A stretch of DNA of 50,376 nucleotides from Spirochaetota bacterium (lineage in GTDB: Bacteria; Spirochaetota; Brachyspiria; Brachyspirales; JACRPF01). Below the pieces are notes generated by a model that ran no database searches, was not told the origin of the DNA, and worked only from the letters and a program-made list of their open reading frames with translations. Within the stretch, counting starts at the first letter, position 1. Each line of letters opens with the position of its first letter. The DNA lies in contig JBBTBY010000102.1 in assembly GCA_038043445.1 (NCBI GenBank), positions 1 through 50,376 on the forward strand, read 5' to 3'. The translations under genes were made by a program, and so were the position numbers. Positions 5,821 through 50,237 of the stretch are shown one piece after another.

Positions 5821-6078
5821 GGCGGCTGGCGCCGGGCCGCGCCGCTCGCTACGTGCAAAAAAAATGTTGTTGGAAATAAAAACCGAGATAATTTTGATGT
5901 AAATTCTCATTGGTTACTACAGAACCAATTCGGCAGCGTTCGGGCCTGATCGTTCCCTGACCGCAGCGCGAGGCGGGACGCGGTTGGATTTGACAGGAAA
6001 TCGGCTGGTGGTTATACTTGGCGATATGGATGAAGTCTCGGTGAAAAACAAAGGTCCTGTTTCTCTGGATACCCGAAG
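5821..6078. other. Intergenic stretch before the ankyrin gene
   Basis: It begins with a GC-rich segment containing short complementary arms (GCGGC and GCCGC) and later an A8 run, not arranged as a convincing terminator. The right end holds a strong promoter and an 18-codon upstream frame. No RNA gene is recognised. Confidence 0.4.
5990..6018 (+). promoter_or_regulatory. Near-consensus promoter upstream of the ankyrin lipoprotein
   Basis: TTGACA (5990-5995), a 17-bp spacer and TATACT (6013-6018). Transcription would begin near 6025, directly at the ATG (6026) of a short upstream frame. Confidence 0.7.
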
Positions 6079-6082
6079 TTGA
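6026..6082 (+). CDS. Possible 18-residue leader peptide ahead of the ankyrin gene
   Basis: ATG at 6026-6028 lies 7 nt after the -10 box, so it could be read from a leaderless mRNA. The 18 codons (MDEVSVKNKGPVSLDTRS) end in TGA at 6080-6082, which overlaps the TTG start of the ankyrin gene (6079-6081) in the four-base arrangement TTGA. This would allow termination-reinitiation coupling, which the downstream gene may need because it lacks a clear SD and uses TTG. No similarity to a known leader is recognised, and chance occurrence is possible. Confidence 0.35.
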   Translation: MDEVSVKNKGPVSLDTRS

Positions 6083-6936
6083 ACAGCAAGTTACGAACAA
6101 TATTTTTAATTTCCCTTGTGCTTGTATCATATTCCTGTAATAGCTCAAAAAAACGCATAATGGAAGATGCTTTTCACCGTGCTGTTTCGCAAGGCGATAC
6201 TTCTATGGTAAAGTATTATATTGATAATGGGGTTAATGTAAACGTCTATGACAGAAACGCTTATAGCGCATTATGGAAAGCGACCAGAGATGAAGAATAT
6301 GATTTAGTAAAAACTCTTATTGAATGCAAAGCGAATGTTAATCTAAGAAACAATGAGACAAGCAAATATGATGAACCTCCACGGAAAGAAACGTCAATAT
6401 ATTGCGCAATATCAACAAAAAATTTAGTAATTTTGGAATACCTGCTTCAGCATGGAGCAAATCCGAACATGAAAAGACTCGATCCAGAAGGTGAAACAGC
6501 ACTCAGCTTTGCCATTTCGCATTCCAAAAAAAGCACTAAAGAAACTGACCTCGAAATTGTTCGAACCCTATTGAAGTATGGAGCAGATCCAAATAATCGA
6601 GATGGTTTATTTGGAGATTATCCATTGTATTGGGCAATATTAACAGATATGTATTGGTGCAATGGGCAGAATGATTTTGCAAAACTGTTAATGAAATATA
6701 ATGCGAGAACAGATATTAGGCACACTTCTGACGGAGAACATGTGCTAGTATTTGCTATACAGTATAAGAATTATGATCTTTTAAAGATGCTCGTTAACAA
6801 TGGAGCAAATGTAAATGCAACTGCTTATAAATGGAAGCGCGGAACAATACTGGAGTATTCGGAAGAAAACGGCGATATAGAATTGTCGAAAATACTCATT
6901 TCCGCCGGGGCAAAAAAATCTATAAAATGGCAATAG
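6079..6936 (+). CDS. Ankyrin-repeat lipoprotein, AT-rich
   Basis: This 285-residue protein starts with a lipoprotein signal peptide (hydrophobic TIFLISLVLVSYS followed by Cys20), so it should be anchored to a membrane facing the periplasm. Residues about 30-280 are ankyrin repeats: DTSMVKYYIDNGVNVNVYD, YDLVKTLIECKANVNLR, LVILEYLLQHGANPN, LEIVRTLLKYGADPNNRD, YDLLKMLVNNGANVNA and IELSKILISAGAKKS. Such repeats mediate protein binding; no enzymatic domain is present. Start TTG is assigned because it opens exactly at the signal peptide and no ATG or GTG is available upstream in frame. The gene is clearly AT-rich with A/T-ending codons, unlike its GC-rich neighbours, which suggests horizontal acquisition. 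It stands alone between repeats. Partner and function are unknown. Confidence 0.75.
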   Translation: MNSKLRTIFLISLVLVSYSCNSSKKRIMEDAFHRAVSQGDTSMVKYYIDNGVNVNVYDRNAYSALWKATRDEEYDLVKTLIECKANVNLRNNETSKYDEPPRKETSIYCAISTKNLVILEYLLQHGANPNMKRLDPEGETALSFAISHSKKSTKETDLEIVRTLLKYGADPNNRDGLFGDYPLYWAILTDMYWCNGQNDFAKLLMKYNARTDIRHTSDGEHVLVFAIQYKNYDLLKMLVNNGANVNATAYKWKRGTILEYSEENGDIELSKILISAGAKKSIKWQ

Positions 6937-21569: not shown

Positions 21570-21598
21570 TTGCGGCTATTGGCATGCTAGTATATACT
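21570..21598 (+). promoter_or_regulatory. Promoter of the GT2 gene with very short leader
   Basis: TTGCGG (21570-21575), a 17-bp spacer and TATACT (21593-21598). Only 10 nt separate the -10 box from the ATG. Confidence 0.5.
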
Positions 21599-21608
21599 GG
21601 GCCGCCAC

Positions 21609-22712
21609 ATGAAGATAACTGCGCTCATACCCGTATATCAAAAGCCAAAACGCGTACAGAGCATTGTGCGCACCCTTCTGTCCGATCGTCACGCGGAGAA
21701 GGAGATCGTGGTCGTTGTCGACGGGGAAGCGACGAAGGAGATAAAAAAGGCGCTCGCTCCGTTCGGGAAAAGGATAAAAGTCCGATATAATCATGAGCGA
21801 TTGGGGAAGTCGACGGCGCTCAATAATGTCGCACTTGAGGTGAGCTCGGATGTGCTCCTGTTCCTCGACAATGACATCGTCCTGCCCGCGGGCGGGACAC
21901 TACTCGAGGAGCTGTCCGACATCATGTGTTCGCAGGATATCGTCGAGCTTCCCAAAGAGGCGATAACAAAATCGCTCATCTCTCGCATGATGGGGTATGA
22001 ATTCCTCTCGATAGCGATGACGGAATTCGTCATGGCCGGTCTATCAGGCCGCAGTCCCTCGATGAACGGGGCTGCCTTCGCTGTACGGACGGCGCTTTTC
22101 AGGAAACTCCGCGGTTTCAGACAGGTCTTCCATGAGGACATGGATTTTGCGGCTCGTGCGTTCCGGGACGGCGCCCGTTTTTCCTATCCCCCGCGGCTCA
22201 AAGTGAAGAACGAGGTGCCGGATACGATCGGCGACTGGCTCACACAGCGCAAGCGCTGGGCGCTCAATAATATACTCTGGCTGAAAGAGAACTTCTTCAT
22301 CGTTGTCCTGCATATGTTCAAGTCGCCGTCGTTCTTCCTTTCGGCGATGCTGCTCTTCCTGCCGTTCATAGCCTATCTTGTCATGTTCCTCACGCTGAAG
22401 CAGCTGCGTATCACCGCGATACTCCCGATCATCTTCATGACGGTGCAGCAGTACCATGTCATCGCCGGGTTATTCCTGTGGCTCACGCATATCGATCTTA
22501 TCTTCGTCGAAGGCATCATACCTACTGCGGGGGCGATATTGTTCTCCGGTGTGCTGACCGGCGCATTCGCACGCGTGCTCAATTTCCGTTTCAATCCGCT
22601 CGAGTATCTTCTCTTCTATTTCATCTACTCGCCGATATGGCTCATCGCGAACGCGGTCATGTGGATAGTCGTCCTTCTGCGTATCGATATCAAGCACGAC
22701 TGGAAGGTCTGA
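21609..22712 (+). CDS. Membrane family 2 glycosyltransferase
   Basis: This is a 367-residue GT-A glycosyltransferase. The catalytic region (about 1-225) opens with ITALIPVYQKP and has VVVVDGEA, the DXD-type LFLDNDIVLP, NGAAFAVR, the acceptor-site HEDMDFAARA and the Q-RKRW signature in TQRKRWALNN, which in processive synthases such as cellulose and hyaluronan synthase contacts the growing chain. Four or so transmembrane helices follow (about 240-360). It probably builds a cell-surface polysaccharide or glycolipid from a nucleotide sugar. There is no SD before the ATG and the -10 box is close, so the mRNA may be nearly leaderless. The 3' end overlaps the convergent GH1 gene by 23 bp. Confidence 0.85.
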   Translation: MKITALIPVYQKPKRVQSIVRTLLSDRHAEKEIVVVVDGEATKEIKKALAPFGKRIKVRYNHERLGKSTALNNVALEVSSDVLLFLDNDIVLPAGGTLLEELSDIMCSQDIVELPKEAITKSLISRMMGYEFLSIAMTEFVMAGLSGRSPSMNGAAFAVRTALFRKLRGFRQVFHEDMDFAARAFRDGARFSYPPRLKVKNEVPDTIGDWLTQRKRWALNNILWLKENFFIVVLHMFKSPSFFLSAMLLFLPFIAYLVMFLTLKQLRITAILPIIFMTVQQYHVIAGLFLWLTHIDLIFVEGIIPTAGAILFSGVLTGAFARVLNFRFNPLEYLLFYFIYSPIWLIANAVMWIVVLLRIDIKHDWKV

Positions 22713-23958
22713 ACGATTTCTTGAGAAGCCTTGTCATGAGATCACGGTACGCGAAGGCGCTTTTCTTTATATGCCGCTTCCCGTCCTTTGCAACCGAGAT
22801 CAATCCGAAATGCGGGCTGAACCCGCGCTGCCATTCGAAATTATCAAGATTCGACCAGTGGAAATAGGCGCGTACGTCAGCCCCGTTCGTGCGTGCTTCC
22901 ATCACCCGCGATACATGTCGCTCGATGAAGGCGGACCGCCAGGCGTCATCGTCGGTGGCGATGCCGTTCTCGGCGATGATGACAGGAAGCTTGTATCGTT
23001 CGGTAATTGACGTGATGAAATGCGATATGCCTTCAGGATATTCCGTCCATCCCATGAGCGTCCGTTGTTCGTCAGGTCTTTTTGCGAAGCGCCCGGTTAT
23101 CGAGAACGCGCCGATATACAGGCGTGTGTAGTAATTGATGCCGATGAAGTCGGCGGTCCCGGGTATCGATGTGTCGCGGGAAAAGAGCGCGAGGGGCGGC
23201 GGCAGCATGCCGGTGGAGAGGGCATCGAGATACATATAGTTGAAGAACCAGTCGATGCCCTTTGCTGCGGCGACATCGAGCGGATTATGGCGATGCACGG
23301 GTTCCATGCAGGTACAATGCTGCACGGGGCCGACCATGCATGATGGGTTCTCCGCTTTCAGTATTCGGTAGCATCGCGCGTGGGCGAATAGGAGATTGCG
23401 TATCACACGGAGGCAGGAGAACACATCGGTCTGCGCGGGCGGGAAATCGCGGGTGATGTATGATTGCAGCGCATAGACCATCGGTTCATTGATGGTGCAC
23501 CAGTAACGGACGTCGCTAAATTCCCGGGCGAGGAGCGCGGCGAAGTCATCGAAATAGACGAGGTTCCTTGCATCGGCAAAGCCGCCCTGTTGGGCGAACC
23601 ACTCTGGTATCGTAAAATGGAATATCGTGACGAAGGGCTCGAGATGAAGGCGCTTGAGCGTATCGATGACGCGGCGATAATGGCGTACGGCGCCTTTATC
23701 CACTGACGTGGGGCCGTCCGGAAAAAAGCGGCTCCATTCGAACGATATGCGGTGTGCGTTATGGCCGAGTTTTTTGAGCGTGCGGAAATCGTCCGCGAAG
23801 CGACGATAATGATCAGAGCTTATGCCCGATCGTTCGCCGCTCGCAGTACCGACGCCGTTCTCGAACGCCCACCACTGATTACGGCGATTATTCCCTTCGA
23901 CCTGATGCGCGGCGGATGCGGCGCCCCAGTAGAATGGATCGGCTTGTCGTTTTGGCAT
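22690..23958 (-). CDS. GH1 beta-glucosidase/beta-glycosidase
   Basis: This 422-residue family GH1 enzyme is cytoplasmic because no signal peptide is present. Motifs in order: FYWGAASAAHQVEG (sugar-binding Gln and His), NAHRISFEWSRFFP, HFTIPEW, acid/base Glu158 in CTINEPMVY, INYYTR, nucleophile Glu330 in VIIAENGIATDD, and WSNLDNFEWQRGFSPHFGLI near the C-terminus. It removes beta-linked glucose or a related sugar from oligosaccharides. The length is close to the family norm (about 440-470). Its promoter is a perfect TTGACA/TATAAT pair with the -10 box six bases from the ATG and no SD. The gene overlaps the convergent GT2 gene by 23 bp at the 3' end and diverges from the LipM-like gene. Confidence 0.93.
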   Translation of the reverse strand: MPKRQADPFYWGAASAAHQVEGNNRRNQWWAFENGVGTASGERSGISSDHYRRFADDFRTLKKLGHNAHRISFEWSRFFPDGPTSVDKGAVRHYRRVIDTLKRLHLEPFVTIFHFTIPEWFAQQGGFADARNLVYFDDFAALLAREFSDVRYWCTINEPMVYALQSYITRDFPPAQTDVFSCLRVIRNLLFAHARCYRILKAENPSCMVGPVQHCTCMEPVHRHNPLDVAAAKGIDWFFNYMYLDALSTGMLPPPLALFSRDTSIPGTADFIGINYYTRLYIGAFSITGRFAKRPDEQRTLMGWTEYPEGISHFITSITERYKLPVIIAENGIATDDDAWRSAFIERHVSRVMEARTNGADVRAYFHWSNLDNFEWQRGFSPHFGLISVAKDGKRHIKKSAFAYRDLMTRLLKKSFRPSSRA

Positions 23959-23964
23959 GTGCGG

Positions 23965-23992
23965 ATTATAGGTAAACGCGGGTGAATGTCAA
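23965..23992 (-). promoter_or_regulatory. Consensus sigma-70 promoter of the GH1 gene, leaderless arrangement
   Basis: On the minus strand, TTGACA (23987-23992), a 16-bp spacer and TATAAT (23965-23970), both perfect. Six bases then separate it from the ATG at 23958, so the transcript should start at or next to the A of the start codon. Confidence 0.8.
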
Positions 23993-24082
23993 TGTTTTTC
24001 CTGCATGGGAAAGGATCGCGGAATACGAGCAGGGCAGAAAACAGGCATTTGCCCGCGGCATTTTCGCGACAGGCTCAGGCGT

Positions 24083-24111
24083 TTGTCCATCGGACCGATG
24101 CATGATATACT
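24083..24111 (+). promoter_or_regulatory. Promoter of the LipM-like gene, leaderless arrangement
   Basis: TTGTCC (24083-24088), a 17-bp spacer and TATACT (24106-24111), then six bases to the ATG at 24118. No SD sequence is available. Confidence 0.6.
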
Positions 24112-24117
24112 TGCACA

Positions 24118-24915
24118 ATGCCGACGCCGTTCCGATACATCTACTCCGGGCACTGTGATGCCGTCACCAATATGGCCATCGACGAATATCTGTTCGATGA
24201 GCTCATGCGCGGCGACACCGAAGCGGTGCTCCGCATCTACGGCTGGAGACCGGCATCGCTTTCGCTCGGCCGAAGCCAGGCTTCCGCTTCCGTCGACCGT
24301 GCCGCATGTGAGAAGGCCGGCATTCCCGTTGTCAGAAGGATGACCGGCGGCGGCGCGATATTCCATGATGACGAGATAACCTACAGCATCTGCGCACGTT
24401 CCGACATCGCGGGTGGATCGGTCAAGGAATGCTATCGTTTCCTGTGCGGCTTTATCATTCACGCCTATCGTGAACTCGGACTTGCGGCGGCGTTCGCCCG
24501 CGAGCTCCCGCATGAAGGGAAATTCGGTGAACGCAACCCCGTCTGTTTCGCCGCGCGTGAGGAATACGATATTGTCGTCAACGGATACAAGATAGGCGGC
24601 AATGCCCAGCGATGGAAACGCGGGTTCGTTTTTCAGCACGGCTCCATCCCGTTCACGCTTTCCCCCGCGCGTTACAATGAGCTTATGAGCGGGGGAGGGG
24701 AGCATCTCGGCGGGAATACGCGTGCGCTCGCCGACCATAATGTGCGTATATCGTTCGAGGATATGGCGGCCTTGCTCAAGCGCTCATTCGCGGAAGCATG
24801 CGATGCGGTGTTCGTGAGGGAGGAGATGCTCACGTCGCTTCCGGGAGCGGCAGCCGCGTTCGCGGAGAAGTATTCGTCGGAAGCGTGGACATGGGACGGC
24901 GCATACGGCTCGTGA
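24118..24915 (+). CDS. LipM-like octanoyltransferase / lipoate-protein ligase family protein
   Basis: This 265-residue protein has the biotin/lipoyl protein ligase fold. VVRRMTGGGAIFHDDEITYS (about 71-90) is the lipoate-binding loop. PVCFAAREEYDIVVNGYKIGGNAQ (about 141-164) holds Cys143, in the place of the catalytic cysteine of Bacillus LipM, and Lys158. FQHGSIPF follows as in LipM. LipM moves octanoyl groups from acyl carrier protein to GcvH in the lipoate pathway. A lipoate-scavenging ligase (LplA) is the alternative. Length and lack of a C-terminal LplA accessory domain favour LipM. The gene is probably leaderless and monocistronic. It is a housekeeping gene between carbohydrate genes. 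Confidence 0.8.
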   Translation: MPTPFRYIYSGHCDAVTNMAIDEYLFDELMRGDTEAVLRIYGWRPASLSLGRSQASASVDRAACEKAGIPVVRRMTGGGAIFHDDEITYSICARSDIAGGSVKECYRFLCGFIIHAYRELGLAAAFARELPHEGKFGERNPVCFAAREEYDIVVNGYKIGGNAQRWKRGFVFQHGSIPFTLSPARYNELMSGGGEHLGGNTRALADHNVRISFEDMAALLKRSFAEACDAVFVREEMLTSLPGAAAAFAEKYSSEAWTWDGAYGS

Positions 24916-30735: not shown

Positions 30736-30764
30736 TTGACATGAGCATTGCTTTCGATTAAGCT
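30736..30764 (+). promoter_or_regulatory. Possible promoter of the PBP-AraC gene, leaderless arrangement
   Basis: TTGACA (30736-30741), a 17-bp spacer and the weak -10 TAAGCT (30759-30764), six bases before the ATG at 30771. The poor -10 would suit an activator-dependent promoter. Confidence 0.45.
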
Positions 30765-30770
30765 GACACC

Positions 30771-31964
30771 ATGCGCATCGCCTATATCCACGCCGGCATG
30801 CGTTTTGAATCCTATGTCGGCTCTCCTATTTACGATGCCGTATGCCGCGGCATGTCCATGAAGGGGAAGGGCAGCATCGATTTTTTCGACGCCCGCTGCG
30901 ATCCGGTACGGCTCCTCGCGGGAAAAGTGCGTTTCGACGGTGTGCTCGGCACTATCCCCGCCGGTGCGCGCCGGAAGGGATGGCATGTGCTTTCACGTAA
31001 AGTCCCTTCCGTCGATGTAATGATAGACAGCGGAGCGAAGCGCGGCAATTACGCCGGTACGGATGAGGCGGATGGTATTCGCAAGATCATGGACCATCTG
31101 TGCGCTGAAGGGCATGAGCATATCGGCTATTTCGGTACAAGCGCCGAGGGATTCGCGCGCGCGCGCTACCGTGCGTACCGCGAGTATATGCGCGAGCATT
31201 CGCTCATGGTCCGGCGTGCATGGATGTTCGGACCGGACGCAGGTTCGGCGCCGCGGCTTCTCTTCAGCCGCCATGCGAACAAGCGTTTCGAGGCGTTCGT
31301 TTCAGCGCGCATTGATGCCGTGCTCGGTATGAAGGAGCGTCCGTCGGCCATGGTTTTCGAGAGCGATCTTGCCGCATATATGTTCATAACGAGGGGGCGT
31401 TCGCTCCGTATCCCGGCGGATATGGCGATCACCGGTTTCGATGATAAGAAGCCCGGGGACGGGGATGATTTTCCGCTGACCACCTGCGCGCAGGATTTCA
31501 CCGCCATCGGTAAAGCGGCGGTCGATCTCCTCTGCGATATCATGAGCGGCGACCGGCCCCGCACGGGTAATCAAGTGCTCATACCGCCGCGGCTGATCAT
31601 CCGCCGCTCATCGCGCAAGCGTACGCTTGAACGATCGGCCATGGACGACGGCTTCGCCGCCGAGGTGCGCCGCTCTATCGAGGAACACTATGCCGATGAG
31701 AACCTCTCGCATGCGCTCTCTGATATGCTCGGTTTCAATCATAAATATTTCCTTGATAAATTCCATGCCGTGTTCGGCGTTCATTATATCGATTACCTCA
31801 ATGACCTGCGTCTTACCCGGGCCGAGGAGCTTTTGCGCAACACCGACGATGCCGTGACCGAGATACTTCTCGATACGGGTTTCAAGAGCCATCAGAATTT
31901 CAATCGATTCTTTCAGCGCAGATACGGCATGACCGCCGCTCGATATCGGGCGAAGCACCGGTAA
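30771..31964 (+). CDS. XylR-like regulator: periplasmic-binding-protein sensor fused to AraC DNA-binding domain
   Basis: This is a 397-residue regulator. Residues about 1-280 form a LacI/PBP-type sugar sensor without its own HTH (MRIAYIHAGMRFESYVGSPIY, GVLGTIPAG, DADG-like EADGIRKIMDHL, GHEHIGYFG, MAITGFDDKKPGDGDDFPLTT). The C-terminus (about 290-395) is an AraC HTH pair (LSHALSDMLGFNHKYFLDKFHAVFG and VTEILLDTGFKSHQNFNRFFQRRYGM, ending TAARYRAK). This architecture matches E. coli XylR and many regulators of Lentisphaerota and Verrucomicrobiota. It precedes the deacetylase-like, double-FAD and sialate esterase genes in the same direction and probably controls them. No SD is visible, consistent with a leaderless start. 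Confidence 0.88.
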   Translation: MRIAYIHAGMRFESYVGSPIYDAVCRGMSMKGKGSIDFFDARCDPVRLLAGKVRFDGVLGTIPAGARRKGWHVLSRKVPSVDVMIDSGAKRGNYAGTDEADGIRKIMDHLCAEGHEHIGYFGTSAEGFARARYRAYREYMREHSLMVRRAWMFGPDAGSAPRLLFSRHANKRFEAFVSARIDAVLGMKERPSAMVFESDLAAYMFITRGRSLRIPADMAITGFDDKKPGDGDDFPLTTCAQDFTAIGKAAVDLLCDIMSGDRPRTGNQVLIPPRLIIRRSSRKRTLERSAMDDGFAAEVRRSIEEHYADENLSHALSDMLGFNHKYFLDKFHAVFGVHYIDYLNDLRLTRAEELLRNTDDAVTEILLDTGFKSHQNFNRFFQRRYGMTAARYRAKHR

Positions 31965-37557: not shown

Positions 37558-38382
37558 TCATCCGCGCGCTTCGAGCGCATGCTGCTTTCGCCATGCATTC
37601 GGCGTCATGCCGAAACGCTTCCTGAACACGCGGAAGAAATATTCGGCATTGCCGTATCCGCACTGCGCTGCGACAAAATGCACCGGCATTGATGTAGCCG
37701 TGAGCAGAAGTTTCGCGCGATGGAGCCGCATCTCGTTGATGAGCTCGGGGAATGTCTTTCCGTAGAGACTTCGCAGTATCTCGCTCATGCGCGAGGGGTT
37801 CAGCCCGACCACGGAGCAGAGATCGTCGAGTGACGGATCCTTATTGTAGCGCATCTCGATGAAACGGTCTATCTGCTGCTTGCGGCTGTGTCCCCCCGTC
37901 ACCGAAAGGTCATGCACGGCTATCTCGATCTCCCTTTTGATGAGGGAGAGCATGTCATAATGTTCATCGAGTATCCGGGCATCGGCGAGCGGGAGCGATG
38001 AGGCCTCTTTCAGCGGCGAACGGACCGGTTCGGAAAGCGCGAACGGTATCGCCTTGCCCCGTGGGTGGAATACGCCTGCAAAGAGCATCCCCTCGACACG
38101 CCCGCATCGTCGGAGCGGCATGAACACTTCAATGAAGCCTGCATGGCAGTGCTTGAAGCCGCCGTCGGGGAAATCCTCTATCTCGTTCTGCAGCCGCTTC
38201 AGATCAAAGGCGCTACAGCGCAGGTCCATCGTTTTTTTTACCTGCATGCAGAACGGGTTCGCATCGTGCGAGAGATGATCCGTCGGTACCACCTCGGAAA
38301 AAACGCCAGTGTAGTCATGTACGGATATGGATACGCCGAGGCGCTTCTCATACGCGGCTATGATCGCTTCCAATAAAGCCAT
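37558..38382 (-). CDS. PocR-domain AraC-family regulator
   Basis: This is a 274-residue regulator. The N-terminal PocR sensor (about 5-125) shows its Cys/His pattern: NPFCMQVKKTMDLRCSAF and GFKHCHAGFIEVFMPL. It is known to bind small molecules such as hydrocarbon derivatives or 1,2-propanediol-type ligands. The C-terminal AraC domain (about 170-270) has two HTHs: PSLDDLCSVVGLNPSRMSEI and VHFVAAQCGYGNAEYFFRVF, ending FGMTPNAWRK. It diverges from an FAD oxidoreductase gene, with a 12-bp palindrome overlapping both promoters. Its -10 box TAGATT lies six bases before the ATG with no SD, so the mRNA is probably leaderless. The stop lies 25 bp from the convergent esterase. Confidence 0.9.
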   Translation of the reverse strand: MALLEAIIAAYEKRLGVSISVHDYTGVFSEVVPTDHLSHDANPFCMQVKKTMDLRCSAFDLKRLQNEIEDFPDGGFKHCHAGFIEVFMPLRRCGRVEGMLFAGVFHPRGKAIPFALSEPVRSPLKEASSLPLADARILDEHYDMLSLIKREIEIAVHDLSVTGGHSRKQQIDRFIEMRYNKDPSLDDLCSVVGLNPSRMSEILRSLYGKTFPELINEMRLHRAKLLLTATSMPVHFVAAQCGYGNAEYFFRVFRKRFGMTPNAWRKQHALEARG

Positions 38383-38388
38383 TGTCAG

Positions 38389-38416
38389 AATCTAACCGAA
38401 AACCCTGATAAAGCAA
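38389..38416 (-). promoter_or_regulatory. Promoter of the PocR-AraC gene, leaderless arrangement
   Basis: On the minus strand, TTGCTT (38411-38416), a 16-bp spacer and TAGATT (38389-38394), then six bases to the ATG. Confidence 0.45.
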
Positions 38417-49541: not shown

Positions 49542-50201
49542 TTACCACGGATAGCACATGAATCCGAGGTCCACCCTGTCGTAGATATGAAATGTCACCG
49601 GGCTGAGCGGGATGAGGACGCCGATGGTGTTCTTCAGAATAACAGAAATATCTTTTGTGAGAAACGATTCGAGACCAAGCACGATACCGCCGCCGGGGCT
49701 GAAGACCGTTACATTGGTCGAGAATACCGGCGGCATGGCCGTGGTCTGCCCGTAGAATGCCGGCATGAGCGAAAGCCCCCCGAAGAGAATGGTAGGTCCC
49801 ACCGCATCATGGAACCTGAAAAGCGTGCCGCCGAGGGTGATCTCCACGGCAGGCGCAAGTATCGTTGCACTCGAACGTGTTATTCCCTCGAAAACGGCCT
49901 CGGCGCTCATGAGCGTAAGGCGTACGGCAAAACTCGTCTCGCCCATGTTCGGGACGAAAGCGAACCCGAACGAGAATTCATCACCGAAACCGACGGGATA
50001 GCGCTCAGCGCCGCTTTCCGGTACACCGATGATGTCAAGCTCTTTGGAATAGCCGACGGCGACATGCCATTGATTTTCCGTCCTGTCATCATGCTTCCAG
50101 GAGAAATATGAATTCTCCCGGACATCGTACTCCGTGCTCGCGCATCCGATGGCGAGTACGGCGCACAGAAGCGCGGCTGTAAGGCGGAATGAATATATCA
50201 T
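49542..50201 (-). CDS. Small lipoprotein with beta-barrel-like sequence
   Basis: This 219-residue protein has a lipoprotein signal (LTAALLCAVLAIGC, lipidated Cys20). The mature part alternates hydrophobic and polar residues with many aromatic and glycine positions (FGFAFVPNMGETSFAVRLTL, ILAPAVEITLGGTLFRFHD, ILFGGLSLMPAFYG) and ends YDRVDLGFMCYPW. This is the pattern of outer-membrane beta-barrels or OmpA/OprD-like small barrels. No family is recognised. A TATACT box lies seven bases before the ATG with no SD, so it is probably leaderless. It is followed by the FAD gene 87 bp downstream on the same strand; no terminator is seen between them. Confidence 0.6.
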   Translation of the reverse strand: MIYSFRLTAALLCAVLAIGCASTEYDVRENSYFSWKHDDRTENQWHVAVGYSKELDIIGVPESGAERYPVGFGDEFSFGFAFVPNMGETSFAVRLTLMSAEAVFEGITRSSATILAPAVEITLGGTLFRFHDAVGPTILFGGLSLMPAFYGQTTAMPPVFSTNVTVFSPGGGIVLGLESFLTKDISVILKNTIGVLIPLSPVTFHIYDRVDLGFMCYPW

Positions 50202-50208
50202 CCGGGAC

Positions 50209-50237
50209 AGTATATATCAAAAAGAAGGGGATGGGAA
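50209..50237 (-). promoter_or_regulatory. Promoter of the small lipoprotein gene, leaderless arrangement
   Basis: On the minus strand, TTCCCA (50232-50237), a 17-bp spacer and TATACT (50209-50214), seven bases from the ATG. Confidence 0.5.

Follow-up and report, generated by a model that had tools for sequence, protein, structure and literature searches.

Sigma-70-type promoters six to seven nucleotides from the start codon and probable leaderless initiation in a spirochaete genome, with a bias towards AraC-family regulators

In the window, by which we mean the whole 50,376-nt stretch analysed here (contig C102 of a spirochaete genome), a glycoside hydrolase family 1 (GH1) gene and a gene of the lipoate/biotin ligase family (LplA/LipM-like) diverge from a common intergenic stretch of 159 bp. 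Each ATG stands directly behind a promoter, namely TTGACA-N16-TATAAT-CCGCAC-ATG for GH1 (ATG at 23958, minus strand) and TTGTCC-N17-TATACT-TGCACA-ATG for the lipoate-ligase-like gene (ATG at 24118, plus strand). The features of the pair are:

22690-23958, minus strand: GH1 gene, putatively leaderless with the A of the ATG as +1
23965-23970, minus strand: GH1 -10 box TATAAT, 6 nt from the ATG (promoter score 18.3)
23987-23992, minus strand: GH1 -35 box TTGACA, exact consensus, 16-nt spacer
24083-24088, plus strand: -35 box TTGTCC of the lipoate-ligase-like gene, 17-nt spacer to TATACT
24106-24111, plus strand: -10 box TATACT of the same gene, 6 nt from the ATG (score 13.5)
24118-24915, plus strand: lipoate-ligase-like gene, putatively leaderless

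Among 12,715 ATGs sampled from the genome, not one equalled the GH1 score at spacing 6, and 0.06% of sampled ATGs reached that of the lipoate-ligase-like promoter; the start model described below assigned both starts to the leaderless class with a posterior of 1.0. On either strand of the intergenic stretch, the top-scoring promoter is the N6 one (18.3 and 13.5, with runners-up at 8.5 and 7.4). Upstream of the GH1 ATG an in-frame stop follows after 10 codons with no other start codon between, and the Pfam Glyco_hydro_1 match (E = 1.9e-82) begins at residue 7. The LplA-B_cat match of the ligase-like protein (E = 6.6e-36) runs from residue 14, and 24118 is the first possible start of its gene because of an in-frame stop 4 codons upstream. 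The upstream stops and the early domain starts thus leave practically no alternative start for either gene. In G159, a genome from a second genus of the same family, the GH1 orthologue (58% identity) lies inside an apparent operon and has a start of the Shine-Dalgarno (SD) class; between the two genomes GH1 would have switched mode, being a leaderless lead gene here and an SD-class, apparently operon-internal gene there. Orthologues of the lipoate-ligase-like gene, sought for a direct footprint, were absent from G159, and the order yielded one weak 33% match.

A previous sequence-only reading had pointed to five further sites in the window with similarly placed -10 boxes:

5990-6018, plus strand: promoter TTGACA-N17-TATACT of a leader frame, 7 nt from the ATG at 6026 (score 18.6)
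6026-6082, plus strand: 18-codon frame, a putative gene that would be translated leaderless
21593-21598, plus strand: -10 box TATACT of a GT2 glycosyltransferase gene (21609-22712; Pfam GT2), 10 nt from the ATG
30736-30741, plus strand: -35 box TTGACA of a PBP-AraC regulator gene, 17-nt spacer to TAAGCT
30759-30764, plus strand: weak -10 box TAAGCT of the same gene (30771-31964), 6 nt from the ATG
38389-38394, minus strand: weak -10-like TAGATT of a PocR-AraC regulator gene (37558-38382), 6 nt from the ATG
50209-50214, minus strand: -10 box TATACT of a lipoprotein gene (49542-50201), 7 nt from the ATG (score 13.5)

The spacings between -10 box and ATG proved to be as described at all seven sites (GH1, LipM-like, 50201, 38382, 30771, 6026 and GT2). 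The accompanying claim that these leaders lack an SD sequence also stands, as GGAG, GAGG, AGGA and AAGG are absent from positions -20 to -4 at each of the seven. Six of them have an in-frame stop 3-10 codons upstream without an intervening start codon. The leader-frame promoter has the highest score among the window sites scored. The TGA of its 18-codon frame overlaps the TTG (6079) opening an ankyrin-repeat frame (6079-6936, plus strand; Pfam Ank_2, E = 3.3e-38), and the short frame may possibly encode a leader peptide that is itself leaderless and is coupled to the ankyrin gene. The GT2 start belongs to the short-leader class with a posterior of 0.97, its leader being too short for an SD sequence. 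A Pfam scan gave no match to the lipoprotein. The PBP-AraC promoter has a combined score of 11.8 and a leaderless-class posterior of 0.70, and it competes with a promoter having a stronger -10 box 89 nt from the ATG. The PocR-AraC TAGATT (score 5.4, reached by 0.65% of sampled ATGs) recurs as TAGATT-N6-ATG at the orthologue in G159. Judged by their promoter sequences, the cited sites are very probably leaderless.

The source genome (5.13 Mb in 178 contigs, 97% complete) is placed in its own family, and its order has one other family in the kinship table, f2, which we take to be that of Brachyspira. Its RpoB has 76% identity to that of Brachyspira pilosicoli, well above all other named matches, which marks it as a member of Spirochaetota. 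The anti-SD at the 3' end of the 16S rRNA is intact (GGATCACCTCCTTT), so that SD-dependent and leaderless initiation would coexist.

For a genome-wide view of the spacing, 1.44 Mb of the genome were read and 1,052 genes called by coding potential; all in-frame ATGs close to a 5' end were used, and start choice could therefore not produce a peak. The sequence-only reading had staked its claim on a -10/ATG spacing peak above shuffled sequence, and a sharp one was found in lead genes at 6 nt. Of 490 lead genes, 38 have an in-frame ATG with a strong -10 box at a distance of exactly 6 nt, compared with 5.8 +/- 2.5 (maximum 11) in 20 dinucleotide shuffles; a stricter -10 cut-off gave 27 versus 1.1 (maximum 4). 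Operon-internal genes have no spacing-6 peak in this test. A second, broader hump at 25-30 nt marks ordinary leadered promoters. In the whole 5.13 Mb, TTGACA-N16-18-TATAAT-N6-ATG occurs 9 times and its reversed pattern not at all, and the relaxed form TTGACA-N16-18-TANNNT-N6-ATG 56 times versus once reversed and 15 times with the ATG at N12.

An unsupervised three-class EM start model (SD, -10 or neither), to which no spacing preference was supplied, learned an SD class with AGGAG at spacing 4-6 and a -10 class with TATA(A/C)T, 39% of whose spacing mass lies at 6 and 16% at 7. A -35 box, never given to the model, emerges at -35 to -30 (T in 83% at -34), with a spacer mode of 16-17; at least 5/6 matches to TTGACA at spacers of 16-18 are present in 18 of 59 leaderless-class lead genes, with 0 and 1 at wrong spacers. 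Lead genes (n = 489) were divided into 356 with an SD, 59 with a -10 box at 6-7, 36 with another -10 box and 38 with none; the respective numbers for internal genes (n = 333) are 289, 9, 8 and 27. Spacing 6-7 is thus found in 12.1% of lead versus 2.7% of internal genes (Fisher p = 5e-7), and the operon-internal cases, which have no -35 box, look like false positives. Leaderless promoters are accordingly a recurring mode of this genome, concentrated in lead genes as had been suggested, and the expected use of SD sites by operon-internal genes is likewise borne out (289/333). The leaderless class comprises 84 of 1004 called genes (about 8%, before background correction), 75 of them starting with ATG. 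At about 8% of genes and 12% of lead genes it stays below a fraction of 20%, the abundance expected of a Deinococcus- or Actinobacteria-like genome, and it is a minority mode beside the 73% of lead genes with an SD. At spacing 8-10 some 24 more lead genes, including GT2 at 21609, have leaders of about 2-4 nt without an SD. Codon adaptation does not differ between leaderless and SD genes of this genome (p = 0.59, with a reference set of 4 genes), which gives no support to leaderless genes being a simple low-expression class.

The 1.2 Mb read of G159 offer the same picture, with 42% at spacing 6. Run through this pipeline as controls, E. coli K-12 yielded 1 of 143 lead genes and no such class, while the D. 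deserti plasmid yielded 25 of 157 and contains the class. In 10 of the 76 lead-lead orthologue pairs both genomes have a leaderless or short-leader start, versus 3.2 expected (p = 1.6e-5); with short leaders left out and strict spacing 6-7 in both, 5 versus 2.4 expected is borderline and falls short of significance (p = 0.07). The exact promoter-N6-ATG pattern was further set against its N12 counterpart in 393 spirochaete genomes, the table being summed by hand. N6/N12 counts are 56/15 in this genome, 47/11 in G159, 568/210 in family f2 of the same order, 387/58 in family f43, 68/34 in the small genomes of family f37 and 81/73 in 29 named non-spirochaete genomes. These counts indicate an arrangement widespread in the phylum, with families differing strongly. 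Within the phylum, G138 of family f43 gave the strongest signal (72 at N6 versus 4 at N12).

The class is also biased towards one kind of protein. The AraC HTH_18 domain is present in 17 of 62 leaderless versus 3 of 106 SD proteins of lead or mid genes. When all AraC genes of both genomes were then collected by profile search, spacing 6-7 was found in 19 of 50 (38%) versus 56 of 621 others (9%) in this genome (p = 2e-7), and in 14 of 29 (48%) versus 48 of 557 in G159 (p = 1e-7); inclusion of very short leaders raises the AraC shares to 52% and 66%, respectively. The bias is kept among divergent genes alone (p = 6e-8). Without the EM model, 10 of 50 AraC genes in this genome and 11 of 29 in G159 have a strong -10 box at exactly 6, and neighbouring spacings hold on average 0.46 AraC genes with one. 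Inflation by paralogues was ruled out, the 79 genes forming 68 clusters at 35% identity. The PocR-AraC and PBP-AraC regulators of the window are members of this leaderless AraC group. AraC-family regulators are very many in this genome and in G159 (257 first-look candidates in 5.1 Mb; all 76 scored matched). For LacI and GntR, 0 of 10 usable genes have spacing 6-7, numbers too small to call the bias AraC-only. In other spirochaete families, G138 has several near-leaderless AraC starts, and G006 and G049 have comparable ones, few cases in all. A limited literature search found no earlier report of an AraC leaderless bias, the nearest being the AraC-like VirF of Shigella, whose short form is leaderless (PMC5101355). 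On this evidence we consider leaderless initiation a probable preferred expression mode of AraC-family regulators in this spirochaete family. The AraC association is the new part, the leaderless mode itself being already known, including in Spirochaetes (PMC3160421, PMC5243855).

Based on promoter anatomy, spacing, statistics and conservation, all read directly from the DNA, we consider it highly likely that housekeeping-sigma promoters with a -10 box 6-7 bp from the start codon yield leaderless mRNAs. The promoters would be of the ordinary sigma-70 type; RNA polymerase would initiate on the A of the ATG or on a base next to it, and the ribosome would recognise the 5'-terminal AUG without a Shine-Dalgarno sequence. 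What we infer from this arrangement is the precise position of +1, that the RNA has no leader, and how the ribosome binds. A very unlikely alternative would be leadered transcripts, in which the -10 box near the ATG is secondary or a decoy, or the true start lies downstream behind an SD as an effect of annotation. The start codons were indeed chosen computationally, and the PBP-AraC gene has the stronger -10 box in its promoter 89 nt upstream; at such single genes a distal promoter could add a leadered transcript. However, later starts would cut into the domains of the lipoate-ligase-like protein (residue 14) and GH1 (residue 7), stops block earlier ones, and wrong starts would blur a peak that was observed at exactly 6 nt, linked both to the ATG and to a -35 box at the correct spacing.

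Chance, by which AT-rich upstream stretches supply a TANNNT near some ATGs, can reach single weak cases such as the PocR TAGATT (0.65% of sampled ATGs), but for the leaderless class as a whole it is refuted by the shuffles, the spacing controls, the emergent -35 box, the E. coli control and the orthologue conservation, and we give it next to no credence. The sharp genome-wide peak, the confinement to transcript heads, the recurrence in a second genus and the partial conservation in orthologues instead indicate a placement that is selected rather than accidental. The sequence-only reading had also proposed different translation starts for lead and internal genes. Lead genes do have leaderless starts 4-5 times as often, and this enrichment stands; as a statement on the two classes, however, the proposal is overstated and hardly credible, as it is contradicted by SD counts of 73% in lead (356/489) versus 87% in internal genes. 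If the preferred reading of leaderless mRNAs is true, AraC regulators would be wired to a translation that ignores the SD, perhaps under stress or ribosome-state control. The bias in two genera hints at leaderless initiation being tied to the functional class of a gene, beyond a mere relic. Gene calling in this lineage needs a leaderless class, as starts are otherwise misplaced, particularly those of regulators.

Leaderless genes had been regarded as an inference for this lineage. This holds insofar as transcripts starting at the ATG are deduced from DNA here, although Spirochaetes had already been surveyed and Leptospira mapped. In the 2011 in-silico survey of 953 bacterial genomes by Zheng et al., 6 of 18 Spirochaetes genomes are listed, with a mean of 3.9% and a range of 1.8-6.9% of genes, and leaderlessness was argued to be possible solely for the first gene of a transcript (PMC3160421). 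Their 'TA-led' genes follow the same definition, a TA-like signal some 10 bp upstream of the start; the roughly 8% found here (84/1004, before background correction) lie at or slightly above their range, in a different, uncultured-type lineage. In Leptospira interrogans of the same phylum, dRNA-seq detected about 440 mRNAs with a 5' UTR below 10 nt, 170-184 of them beginning exactly at the start codon (PMC5243855). There the 5' ends were measured, and no housekeeping promoter motif was found; here they are predicted from DNA, behind canonical -35/-10 boxes. Deinococcus-Thermus shares with this genome a TANNNT placed 6-7 bp upstream of the start codon alongside SD genes (PMC12340547), but its leaderless share is about 30% of ORFs with a TACACT-like box, compared with about 12% of leads, TATA(A/C)T and a clear TTGACA-like -35 box here. 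In Streptomyces coelicolor, about 21% of primary starts are leaderless and regulators are prominent among them, particularly the TetR family (PMC4895711). The regulator bias is thus common to both, with TetR there and AraC here in another phylum, and the two together suggest regulators as a recurring niche of leaderless mRNA.
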